From: Dyella acidisoli | GTDB taxonomy: Bacteria; Pseudomonadota; Gammaproteobacteria; Xanthomonadales; Rhodanobacteraceae | Length of the DNA stretch: 64,000 bases | Assembly: GCF_030160295.1 (NCBI RefSeq) | Contig: NZ_BSOB01000010.1 | Span: 626,320 to 690,319, forward strand | Direction of reading: 5' to 3' | Part shown: piece by piece, positions 15,082 to 35,031 of the stretch | How positions within the stretch are numbered: the stretch's first letter is position 1 | Layout: every line of letters begins with the position of its first letter | Notes under the pieces: generated by a model | The model's database searches: none | Told to the model about the DNA's origin: nothing | The model's input: only the letters and a program-made list of their open reading frames with translations | Translations under genes and position numbers: made by a program

Positions 15082-15149
15082 ACCACCGCACCCGGCATCG
15101 CCACTCGCAGGTTTGACGGCCGCGATGCCCAGGCGCTATCGTTCGCCCG

Positions 15150-15335
15150 CCGAGGTCTTTATCTCTTTATGCGAATAGAGAGATGAAATTAAAAGGGAAG
15201 CCGGTGTGAATCCGGCGCTGCCCCGCAGCGGTATGTGGAAACGATCTTCGCCATCAGCACTGGGTGTATGCCCGGGAAGCGGCGAACAGTAGGCGGCACG
15301 ATGTGCCTTGTCCACGAGCCCGAAGACCTGCCCCG
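15150..15335 (+). promoter_or_regulatory. Cobalamin (adenosylcobalamin) riboswitch upstream of metE
   Basis: The conserved core is clear: AAGCCGGTGTGAATCCGGCG at about 15198-15217, GCTGCCCCGCAGCGGTA after it, the CACTGGG box at 15258-15264 with GGGAAG downstream, and the closing GAAGACCTGCC at 15322-15332. Helix P1 can be checked directly: AGGTCTT (15153-15159) pairs with AAGACCT (15323-15329). In known cases cobalamin binding switches off the B12-independent methionine synthase, because MetH can then be used. That logic fits the downstream metE exactly. Confidence 0.93.
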
Positions 15336-15377
15336 GCCGAAGCCCACCGTTCGCAACGGCGTGCTTCGTACGACCTG

Positions 15378-26301: not shown

Positions 26302-26404
26302 GGGGCCTCCGTTGGGTCAGTTCCCTAGCCTACCGAATTTATGCGGCACTGCGGCAATCCATTCGTCATAAGGAACGTTCTATGGATAGAATGGGCGTCT
26401 TCGC

Positions 26405-26475
26405 CGAGGGGCGCTGCGACCGTGGGAATGCACGGCCAGGCTCGGTGGATGCTTCGACTGTAACGGCGCTCATGA
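26405..26475 (+). promoter_or_regulatory. S-adenosylhomocysteine (SAH) riboswitch upstream of ahcY
   Basis: The conserved core is readable: CCGAGGGGCGCTGCGACCG at 26405, a stem CCGTG/CACGG, CCAGGCTCGG closing helix P1 (CCGAG with CTCGG), and AACGGCGCTCA at the 3' end. GGGCGC in the 5' part pairs with GCGCTC near 26466-26471, the pseudoknot typical of this class. SAH binding is known to raise expression of SAH hydrolase, which removes SAH. Confidence 0.92.
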
Positions 26476-26516
26476 CGCGAATTGTCGCGTCGGCCTGGCC
26501 TTCCGGGCCGGGTTTT
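26474..26516 (+). promoter_or_regulatory. Expression platform hairpins of the ahcY riboswitch
   Basis: Two hairpins follow the aptamer at once: GACGCGA/TCGCGTC with loop ATTG (26474-26491), and CCTGGCC/GGCCGGG with loop TTCCG (26494-26512) followed by TTTT. The second looks like an intrinsic terminator, so transcriptional control is likely. The first overlaps the aptamer's 3' end by two bases and could compete with it. Confidence 0.6.
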
Positions 26517-26544
26517 CCCCATGAGACTCGGAGACATCCCTCCC

Positions 26545-27978
<1,434 letters not shown>

Positions 27979-31746: not shown

Positions 31747-31912
31747 GGTTGCCGACATTAACCCGAGTCGCTGTCCGCTGTCCGGTGACCTTTGCCCTAT
31801 GGCGCGTCGGCAGCGCACCATGCACGTGCTCCTAGTCACATTGACACGCCGAAATCCGTCCTCCGATACTTGGCAGGTCACGCGCCATGACCAACGCTAC
31901 GCTGGCGCATCG

Positions 31913-32000
31913 GCCCCGAGGGGTGCTGCGACGGATATTGAACAGGCTCTCTATCCGCCACGCTCGGGTCGCCGACCACTCACAATGAACAAGGGCGCCC
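31913..32000 (+). promoter_or_regulatory. SAH-riboswitch-like element upstream of the ATP-grasp gene
   Basis: CCCCGAGGGGTGCTGCGACGG (31914 onward) matches the start of the ahcY riboswitch with one base changed in GAGGGGCGCTGCGACG. A variable stem GGATA/TATCC follows, then CCACGCTCGG closes P1 (CCGAG 31916-31920 with CTCGG 31963-31967). GGGTGC (31920-31925) pairs in full with GCGCCC (31995-32000), matching the pseudoknot of the ahcY copy with compensated bases. It lies 26 bases before ATG 32026. Assignment is by eye; a covariance search with the SAH riboswitch model would decide. Confidence 0.72.
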
Positions 32001-32020
32001 ACCCCAATTATTTGGAGGTG
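32000..32020 (+). promoter_or_regulatory. Hairpin sequestering the ATP-grasp ribosome binding site
   Basis: CACCCCAA (32000-32007) pairs with TTGG-A-GGTG (32012-32020, one bulged A), with loop TTAT. The hairpin covers the strong GGAGG at 32014-32018, six to seven bases from ATG 32026. CACCCC could instead pair with GGGGTG (31919-31924) in the aptamer, so ligand binding might decide whether the site is open. This suggests control of translation. Confidence 0.55.
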
Positions 32021-32025
32021 TTCCC

Positions 32026-32931
32026 ATGTCTGTTTCTCGTTTTCGCCTTGCCGTTGCTTCGTCCAGGCAATTCCCGACCGTCCATCAGGATGACGTTCAT
32101 CTGCTAGCTACGCTCAACCGTCTGGGGGTAGAGACGACGGTTTGCGTCTGGAACGATCCGCACGTCGATTGGACGTCTTTCGATGCAGTTCTGATTCGCA
32201 CCATCTGGGATTACTTCGAGCACTACACGGCCTTCTGCGCCTGGCTCGATATGCTCGATCGACTAGGCGTCATTACCATCAACGATACGCACACGCTGCG
32301 TTGGAACAGCGATAAACGTTATCTGCTCGAGCTAGAGCAGCAAGGCGTGCCCGTTATTCCGACACGCGTTGCGCAGGGTGGCAGCTTGCAGGAAACACTG
32401 TCCCCCATGCTGGAACACGACGTAGTCATCAAACCGACCGTCAGCGGCGGTGCGTGGCATACCGTGCGGGGCAAGGTGGGTACAGCCGATTTCCAGCATG
32501 CCATCGAGCAGCTGCCGAACAAGCTCGACTATCTGGTGCAACCCTTTGTGCCGGAGATTGCGAGCCACGGCGAATGGTCGCTGATGTTTTTCGACAACGC
32601 TTACAGCCATGCCGTACTCAAGCGTCCGACTACGGGCGACTATCGTGTGCAGGAACAGCATGGTGGCCGTACTGACCAAGCCACACCCGATGACCACATA
32701 GTGAAAGCCGCAAGCAAGACGCTGGCAGCCACCGCTGCATTAGGGCATCGCGATTTGGCTTATGCGCGAGTCGATGGTGTGGTGGCGAACGGGCAGTTCC
32801 TGGTGATGGAACTGGAAGTAATCGAACCGTCGCTGTTCCTAACGGGTAGACCCGAAGCGGCCGAACGATTCGCACAGCTTCTTGTTGAGCGTCTGCAAAG
32901 TCTTCCGAGCGAGGCGCGTCGGCTGGGGTGA
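32026..32931 (+). CDS. ATP-grasp ligase of unknown substrate (RimK/glutathione-synthetase-like)
   Basis: The 301-residue cytoplasmic enzyme has an ATP-grasp layout: an N-terminal domain (VLIRTIWDYFEHYTAF), a lysine in DVVIKPTVSGGAWHT, the adenine-binding LVQPFVPEI, a GDYRVQEQHGG loop like that of RimK, and the metal-binding acidic end VMELEVIEPSLFL. Such enzymes join a carboxylate to an amine or thiol through an acyl phosphate. It resembles DcsG-type proteins from D-cycloserine clusters, but no such cluster is present. It begins with GGAGGTG and ATG 32026 directly behind an SAH-riboswitch-like element, so it probably responds to SAH. That is an unusual connection and suggests a role near sulfur or methyl metabolism. 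Confidence 0.8.
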   Translation: MSVSRFRLAVASSRQFPTVHQDDVHLLATLNRLGVETTVCVWNDPHVDWTSFDAVLIRTIWDYFEHYTAFCAWLDMLDRLGVITINDTHTLRWNSDKRYLLELEQQGVPVIPTRVAQGGSLQETLSPMLEHDVVIKPTVSGGAWHTVRGKVGTADFQHAIEQLPNKLDYLVQPFVPEIASHGEWSLMFFDNAYSHAVLKRPTTGDYRVQEQHGGRTDQATPDDHIVKAASKTLAATAALGHRDLAYARVDGVVANGQFLVMELEVIEPSLFLTGRPEAAERFAQLLVERLQSLPSEARRLG

Positions 32932-33927: not shown

Positions 33928-35031
33928 GTGTCCTTACCCACGCGCAAAATCCTTCACGTCGACATGGATGCGTTCTACGCGTCCGTGGAGCAGCGTGACG
34001 ATCCGTCATTGCGTGGCAAACCGGTGGTGGTCGCCTGGCGTGGCGCGCGCTCGGTGGTGTGCGCCGCGAGTTACGAAGCGCGCAAGTTCGGCGTGCGCTC
34101 AGCCATGCCGGCAGTGCGTGCGGGGCGGCTGTGTCCGCAAGCGATCTTCGTACCGCCGGATTTCGTGCGCTATAAAGCCGCCTCACGGCACGTGCGCGAG
34201 ATCTTTGCGCGGCATACAGATTTGATCGAACCGCTTTCGCTGGACGAAGCCTATCTCGACGTCACGGAAACAAAGACAAACCTGCCTTCCGCCACCGCCA
34301 CCGCGGAGGCCATACGCACGGCCATTCGCGAAGAAACCCAACTCACCGCTTCAGCGGGCGTGGCACCGAACAAGTTTCTCGCCAAGATTGCTTCGGACTG
34401 GAACAAGCCCGACGGCTTGTTCGTGATTCGCCCGCATCAGGTGCTCGCCTTTCTCGCACCGCTGCCGGTGGGCCGTCTGCCCGGCGTGGGCAAGGTGATG
34501 GATGCGAGGCTGGAAGCACTCAGCATCAAGACGGTGGGCGATTTGCGTGCATTACAGCTGCTCGAATTGGAACAACGCTTCGGTCGCTGGGGGCGTCGCC
34601 TGCATGAGCTTTCGCTGGGTATCGACGATCATGCAGTGCAACCCAACCAGCTCACCTTGCAGGTGTCATCCGAAGATACGTTCGAGCACGATCTCACGTT
34701 GGACGAACTCGAACCGCACATTCGCTATCTGGCGGAGAAAACCTGGGCGGCGCATCAACGGGAAGCGCAGCGAGGTCGTATCGCGCGCACCATTGTGCTG
34801 AAACTGAAGACTGCCGATTTTCACACCCTTACCCGCAGCCTTACGCCATCCCTGCACCCGCGCTCGGCGAGCGAGCTGGCCAACGTGGCCTGCGCATTGC
34901 GCGAGCGCGTGGAACGCCCCCCCGATACCCGCTATCGACTTGTGGGTGTTGGGCTTTCTGGATTCGTGGATCGGGACAGCTTCATTGCACAAAGCGACCT
35001 CTTCGACAACGCGTCATTGGATCAGTCATGA
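33928..35031 (+). CDS. dinB: DNA polymerase IV (DinB)
   Basis: A Y-family translesion polymerase that copies damaged templates without proofreading. The 367 residues contain the two catalytic carboxylate motifs, ILHVDMDAFYASVEQRD near the start and LSLDEAYLDVTE at about residue 105. The helix-hairpin-helix LPVGRLPGVGKVMDARL and the C-terminal little-finger domain follow. It starts with GTG at 33928; the preceding sequence has no strong ribosome binding site. No LexA box is obvious in the 200 bases upstream. Its stop overlaps the start of the GH67 gene by ATGA, an odd coupling of a DNA repair gene with a secreted glycosidase. Confidence 0.95.
   Translation: MSLPTRKILHVDMDAFYASVEQRDDPSLRGKPVVVAWRGARSVVCAASYEARKFGVRSAMPAVRAGRLCPQAIFVPPDFVRYKAASRHVREIFARHTDLIEPLSLDEAYLDVTETKTNLPSATATAEAIRTAIREETQLTASAGVAPNKFLAKIASDWNKPDGLFVIRPHQVLAFLAPLPVGRLPGVGKVMDARLEALSIKTVGDLRALQLLELEQRFGRWGRRLHELSLGIDDHAVQPNQLTLQVSSEDTFEHDLTLDELEPHIRYLAEKTWAAHQREAQRGRIARTIVLKLKTADFHTLTRSLTPSLHPRSASELANVACALRERVERPPDTRYRLVGVGLSGFVDRDSFIAQSDLFDNASLDQS

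Follow-up and report, generated by a model that had tools for sequence, protein, structure and literature searches.

Riboswitches for S-adenosylhomocysteine (SAH) have been described mostly on genes of the S-adenosylmethionine (SAM) cycle. Here we analyse a leader that almost certainly belongs to this family and precedes a putative ATP-grasp ligase gene in a 64,000-nucleotide stretch of the Dyella acidisoli genome (contig NZ_BSOB01000010.1, positions 626,320 to 690,319; this whole stretch is called the window, and its coordinates are used below). SAH riboswitches are reported to up-regulate ahcY in the part of PMC7057144 that was available, and the proteobacterial targets given in the accessible sections of Leyn 2014 (PMC4239095), whose Xanthomonadales set comprises four genomes, are ahcY, metF, metH, COG1189, PF04020 and COG1385; Sun 2013 (PMC3766115), likewise available in part, adds PF04993. 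Neither an ATP-grasp gene nor a major facilitator superfamily (MFS) exporter is named as a target in these sections of PMC4239095 and PMC3766115, and the accessible part of PMC7357161 holds nothing closer to an ATP-grasp target. An earlier sequence-only reading of the window knew of no described link between the riboswitch and such a ligase, and none was found in the literature searched, subscription papers and supplementary tables lying outside its scope; by that literature, the ATP-grasp gene is an undescribed SAH riboswitch target.

The RF01057 covariance model matched the window at 31912–32007 on the forward strand, on which all features given below lie unless stated otherwise, with 43.4 bits against a gathering threshold of 37 (E = 1e-4 for the 64-kb window), and the SAH riboswitch identity proposed by the sequence-only reading thus passed the covariance check. 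The whole 5.34-Mb assembly contained only two RF01057 matches, this leader (E = 2.0e-6) and the ordinary SAH riboswitch of ahcY (26400–26478, 54.9 bits). The latter precedes the SAH hydrolase gene (open reading frame, ORF, as listed, 26482–27978; the true ahcY start may lie further inside), and the former ends 18 nt before the ATP-grasp gene (32026–32931, 301 amino acids). Its core pattern occurred once in the window and in none of 100 dinucleotide shuffles. As read from the letters alone, the leader repeats blocks of the ahcY riboswitch (GAGGGGTGCTGCGACG at 31918–31933), and its P1 arms pair (CCCGAG/CTCGGG, 31915–31920 with 31963–31968); P2 is formed by 31932–31937 and 31952–31957, both helices being placed by the Rfam alignment. 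The pseudoknot, said to be kept with a different base set, does pair GGGTGC (31921–31926) with GCGCCC (31995–32000), but one wobble in each leader had been overlooked, U·G in the ATP-grasp leader (31924/31997) and G·U in the ahcY leader.

Searches for SAH riboswitch matches and for orthologs of the window protein covered 147 genomes of the family to which the window belongs (Rhodanobacteraceae), and the counts that follow are among the matches listed. At least one SAH match was present in at least 142 of the 147 genomes. Orthologs of the window protein numbered 42 in 41 genomes (54–100% identity, the window itself included; G145 holds two), and below them identity dropped clearly, to ≤37% over the full length. 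The leader was found before 34 of the 42, in 33 cases by motif, 66–107 nt upstream of the start codon as called, and at locus L067 by its 3′ block. The survey of orthologs that had been suggested as a check therefore located the leader before most orthologs of the family, and it was also found before Lysobacter orthologs (L129, L166, L168 and L183 at 51–54% identity, and L200 at 41% over 54 readable residues). Thirteen further genomes had two SAH matches, and in 12 of these the second stood directly before the ATP-grasp ortholog; in G138 both matches precede ahcY, and the fetched SAH sites L105–L109 (G032, G059, G101, G138) are ahcY leaders. A covariance model and alignment were built from 32 of the 34 leaders, leaving out L067 and L083 with their departing cores; the window leader matches this model by construction, the two left-out leaders match it with E values of 1.7e-18 (L067) and 3.7e-16 (L083), and the remaining eight orthologs gave no match at E values up to 1. 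In a gene tree of 54 rows the orthologs form a single clade, apart from eight relatives at 30–37% identity (100/98), and leader presence on this tree needs six changes, compared with a shuffled mean of 14. The pattern fits an early gain of the leader and about five losses since.

In the 32 aligned leaders 93.6% of the cells pair, and both-sided changes occur in seven of the 19 named pairs, a number matched by none of 500 shuffles. Both P1 and P2 covary across these orthologous leaders. The pseudoknot GGGUGC/GCGCCC pairs in 32/32 without variation, and because the pseudoknot and the couple 30/46 are invariant in this set they prove nothing there.

The sequence-only reading had taken the leader for a mere duplicate of the ahcY riboswitch, but it is a distinct sequence form. 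Riboswitch position numbers were mapped onto the window by way of a reference sequence. On this numbering, the adenine-pocket bases G15, C16 and A29 are kept (31928, 31929 and 31960), and the leader departs jointly from the consensus at position 30 (31961, G to C) and position 46 (31993, C to G). According to the available part of PMC7057144, the crystal structure places the SAH adenine between C16 and A29, with G15 bonding the adenine and C46 meeting the homocysteine tail; the contact of position 46 with the amino-acid tail of SAH is that of 3NPQ. Compared with the RF01057 riboswitches of ahcY, metF and metH (PMC4239095, in the sections available), the window leader likewise scores above gathering, has P1, P2 and the pseudoknot and keeps the pocket bases and the short distance to the start codon, and it differs by C30/G46 in place of G30/C46, by the U11·G50 wobble (U11 = 31924) and by its ATP-grasp target. 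The combination U11/C30/G46 is present in 32/34 ATP-grasp leaders, the exceptions being L067 and L083, whereas the family ahcY leaders, each checked as preceding ahcY, carry C11/G30/C46 in 31/31. When 82 cores from leaders of ATP-grasp, ahcY, metH, exporter and adenosine deaminase genes were pooled, 30/46 was G/C in 27, C/G in 55 and mixed in none; most of the 55 C/G rows came from a pattern demanding C30 and G46 and were hence unable to show mixed pairs. Rfam supplied 26 ahcY leaders of this set, whose row L164, marked ATP-grasp, is the ahcY site of that locus; five longer cores, all family ahcY leaders, lie outside the set and within the comparison of 31. The fair comparison is G/C in 31/31 family ahcY leaders versus C/G in 32/32 aligned ATP-grasp leaders, which fits a base pair between positions 30 and 46.

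A search for the C30/G46 form with one genome per species matched 102 stretches, of which 80 loci were readable and served for the target counts. The downstream genes were ATP-grasp genes (33; 32 assigned by BLAST and L147 by its first residues), ahcY (16), metH (13), Bcr/CflA-like MFS exporters (10), adenosine deaminase (2), MOSC proteins (2), a methyltransferase (1) and an M24 peptidase (1); two loci (L124, L154) end too soon for the gene to be named. The 29 ahcY and metH loci comprise 28 from Actinobacteria and one from the gammaproteobacterium Allopseudospirillum (L175). Because ahcY and metH share the 30/46 swap, SAH is the likeliest ligand of the C30/G46 form. U11 was present in 32/33 ATP-grasp loci (L149 has C11), in all 10 of the exporter loci and at the peptidase locus, and in 0/29 ahcY/metH loci. 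In combination with G30/C46 it was found in none of 369 class genomes; a second class-level pattern search over the same genomes recovered one genome, the window's own. Both searches carry little weight, as only two of the 369 genomes belong to the family, the window's own included.

The C30/G46 leaders preceding ahcY, metH or adenosine deaminase, nearly all from Actinobacteria, have the 30/46 swap, a P2 ending in CGG/CCG and the AAGGGCGC block in common with the window leader. They differ from it by C11, by targets that belong to the SAM cycle or to adenosine metabolism, and by the 3′ end of the pseudoknot, which is GCGCCT or GCGCTC in 28/31 and GCGCCC in 3/31. The leaders of Roseateles, Pelomonas and related Burkholderiales (L126, L128, L139, L153, L157, L161, L172, L181, L188 and L193) have U11/C30/G46 and GCGCCC as in the window leader and differ in that the downstream gene encodes a Bcr/CflA-like MFS exporter; both of the two scanned with Rfam pass gathering, and no relative of the window protein was found in the exporter loci by tblastn. 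The C11/C30/G46 form was observed before adenosine deaminase in Actinobacteria (L178, 3878–3936; L190, 5211–5272), a target in keeping with adenosine as the other product of AhcY. The C11/C30/G46 form was also seen before MOSC-domain proteins at two loci and a UbiE-like methyltransferase at one (L163, 1450–1511; L189, 983–1042; L198, 2380–2440). Rudaea sp. 3F27F6 carries the U11 form (L199, 4974–5035) with the M24-family peptidase gene further downstream and no ATP-grasp gene.

A sigma-70-like promoter (TTGACA-18 nt-GATACT, 31841–31870; one found versus 0.2 expected in shuffles) implies a leader of about 150 nt, and a TTGACA/GATACT arrangement is readable upstream of the G115 ortholog (L034) as well. 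Nothing resembling a terminator was detected on the forward strand, and control at translation is therefore the natural reading. Judged by eye, every one of the 34 minimum-energy folds has the Shine-Dalgarno region at least partly paired, its partners lying within the 3′ strand of the pseudoknot or immediately behind it. The predicted hairpin of the window (32000–32020; 32000–32007 with 32012–32020) pairs the Shine-Dalgarno sequence GGAGG (32014–32018) and starts at the last pseudoknot base; L078-like leaders share two bases. The mean pairing probability of the Shine-Dalgarno sequence over the 34 leaders was 0.80 versus 0.53 with the arm shuffled, and 32/34 lay above the mean of their own shuffles. 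Without SAH, a hairpin would sequester the Shine-Dalgarno sequence, the 5′ arm of this hairpin beginning within the 3′ strand of the pseudoknot. SAH would favour the pseudoknot, the shared base or bases would be reclaimed, the ribosome-binding site would open, and the ATP-grasp gene would be switched on together with ahcY, which agrees with the up-regulation of ahcY reported in PMC7057144. It is highly probable that the window leader senses SAH, and probable that the riboswitch turns the ATP-grasp gene on.

The window protein gave whole-length matches to solved ATP-grasp enzymes, and profile and structure comparisons place it in the DcsG/RimK/GshB fold; that it is an ATP-grasp ligase is very likely. 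Its scores stayed below the family cut-offs, at 190.4 versus 360 bits for DcsG (D-cycloserine synthetase, NF058666, PDB 6jil), 26.0 versus 299 bits for glutathione synthase (TIGR01380) and 29.7 versus 143 bits for the RimK family (TIGR00768). An invariant YRVQ...GG loop, lacking in DcsG, characterises the window clade; no paper on the structure of DcsG turned up in the literature searched. The window protein is 14–20% identical to RimK, LysX/ArgX and GshB (24–31 bits versus NCBIfam cut-offs of 143–299). The enzyme is, judged by its sequence, a clade of its own within the DcsG/RimK/GshB fold group. At the expense of ATP it would activate a carboxylate, which would then be coupled to an amine or a thiol. 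The AhcY reaction is reversible. Were the substrate to come from SAH turnover, most simply as homocysteine, AhcY would be pulled forward; a substrate derived from SAH or homocysteine is our best guess, though a doubtful one. The four preceding steps, namely family membership, SAH sensing, switching on and an ATP-grasp ligase as target (the substrate lies outside them), appear likely when taken jointly, with ligand binding and expression predicted from the sequence.

Two recurrent neighbours were re-tested, an amino-acid permease gene on the opposite strand (27/42 loci) and dinB (DNA polymerase IV, 27/42); the neighbour homology groups include many antisense ORFs and were used for these two only. 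In its 27 loci dinB lies downstream of the ATP-grasp gene and is co-oriented with it, in 10 of them within 10–56 nt of the stop codon (L068–L073, L090, L091, L093 and L102), where the two genes may share a transcript. In the window, dinB (33928–35031) is separated from the ATP-grasp gene by 997 nt and an opposing DJ-1/PfpI gene. In 15/42 loci dinB was missing from the flanking sequence read, which reached at most 6 kb to either side; 11 of these 15 carry the leader. Reading the loci for recurrent neighbours out to about 6 kb revealed no methyltransferase or biosynthetic cluster that recurs beside the gene. Elsewhere in the window, a cobalamin riboswitch lies at 15136–15349 (108.2 bits).

Several observations weigh against an SAH-sensing leader that switches the ATP-grasp gene on. 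Only three of ten ATP-grasp leaders scanned with Rfam reach gathering; Rfam's SAH model undervalues these leaders. At the ligand-contact position 46 the window leader has G at 31993 and not the consensus C; we treat this position as variable and non-defining, because the 29 ahcY/metH leaders of the C30/G46 form carry G too. U11 is absent from the family ahcY leaders (0/31) and from the C30/G46 leaders of ahcY and metH. L067 keeps C30/G46 and has an inserted G replacing U11, and in L083 (5891–5985, G009) the aptamer core has decayed while the CAAGGGCGCCC block and the Shine-Dalgarno hairpin are kept. In the alignment, the number of pair types was equalled by eight of the 500 shuffles, and the two outer named P1 pairs fail in 15/32 and 10/32 leaders. 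The hairpin of Rhodanobacter-type leaders has its main stem beside the pseudoknot strand with no shared base; two of the 34 leaders fall below the mean of their own shuffles, and the hairpin is significant singly in 8/34 (5% level), the window leader not among them (pairing 0.79 versus 0.55 in shuffles, 22% of which reach as high). Finally, the permease and dinB neighbours give no link to SAH.

The U11/C30/G46 form could have a changed ligand preference, for a compound that also carries adenine but has a tail of another kind or for SAH at a higher threshold, and mark a regulon of its own that comprises the ATP-grasp genes of Rhodanobacteraceae and Lysobacter and the Bcr/CflA-like exporter genes of Roseateles and relatives. 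The tail contact of C46 (PMC7057144, part available), the clean separation of the 31 family ahcY leaders from 32/34 ATP-grasp leaders, the restriction of U11 to ATP-grasp (32/33) and exporter (10/10) loci as against 0/29 for ahcY/metH, and its lack of any G30/C46 partner in 369 class genomes all speak for such a change. We had considered an altered ligand as the principal explanation, and it looked strong because at first only family ahcY and ATP-grasp leaders were compared; it was dropped in that role since the 30/46 swap also occurs before ahcY and metH genes, almost all of them actinobacterial, and the swapped pocket hence fits SAH sensing; it persists as a rival through U11. That base is part of the pseudoknot, with the nearest named contact base four places away, and converts only C-G to U·G, and the ATP-grasp leader L149 does with C11; a weaker pseudoknot could set a higher threshold. 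We consider a changed ligand preference quite unlikely. Only a little less so is the extended proposal that U11/C30/G46 would be a separate functional SAH riboswitch subclass, its threshold shifted or its recognition of the tail altered, placed before overflow genes in two lineages: a ligase conjugating an SAH-derived amino acid such as homocysteine in Rhodanobacteraceae and Lysobacter, and an exporter of such a compound in Roseateles and relatives. The score of 11.5 bits below the ahcY copy and the eight orthologs without a leader would agree with the leader being an ahcY element left over as a relic or copied by chance, with no function at the ATP-grasp gene, yet the core is invariant over 32 leaders whose proteins are 54–72% identical to that of the window, P1 and P2 covary, and the differences from the ahcY copy are fixed across genera, which makes a functionless relic or chance copy very improbable.

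The downstream enzyme might act apart from SAH breakdown, making a small product or modifying a protein in a methylation-heavy pathway for which SAH is the running signal. Its best-characterised relatives, DcsG, RimK, LysX/ArgX and GshB, do not act on SAH or homocysteine by their PDB and NCBIfam titles, and the only recurrent neighbours are the permease and dinB genes; against such a role, no methyltransferase or biosynthetic cluster recurred beside the gene within about 6 kb. This role is a real possibility, if short of an even chance. The same neighbourhood raises the idea that dinB is the true target as an operon partner and the ATP-grasp gene a passenger, in line with the 27 same-direction loci and the 10 with short gaps. 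With 997 nt and an opposing gene between the two in the window, and with a leader in 11 of the 15 loci that have no dinB in the stretch read, we regard this as hardly credible.

An SAH-responsive leader of the ATP-grasp gene suggests that an extra enzyme would be made when SAH builds up, in many relatives among Dyella, Rhodanobacter and Lysobacter. A leader kept by two bacterial families links the ligase to SAH, and the ligand of the regulator restricts the range of chemistry worth testing. A natural experiment is offered by the U11/C30/G46 form on how a ligand-touching base can be swapped without, or with, a change in specificity. If the overflow-gene subclass were true, there would be a further sink in addition to AhcY and methionine synthase.
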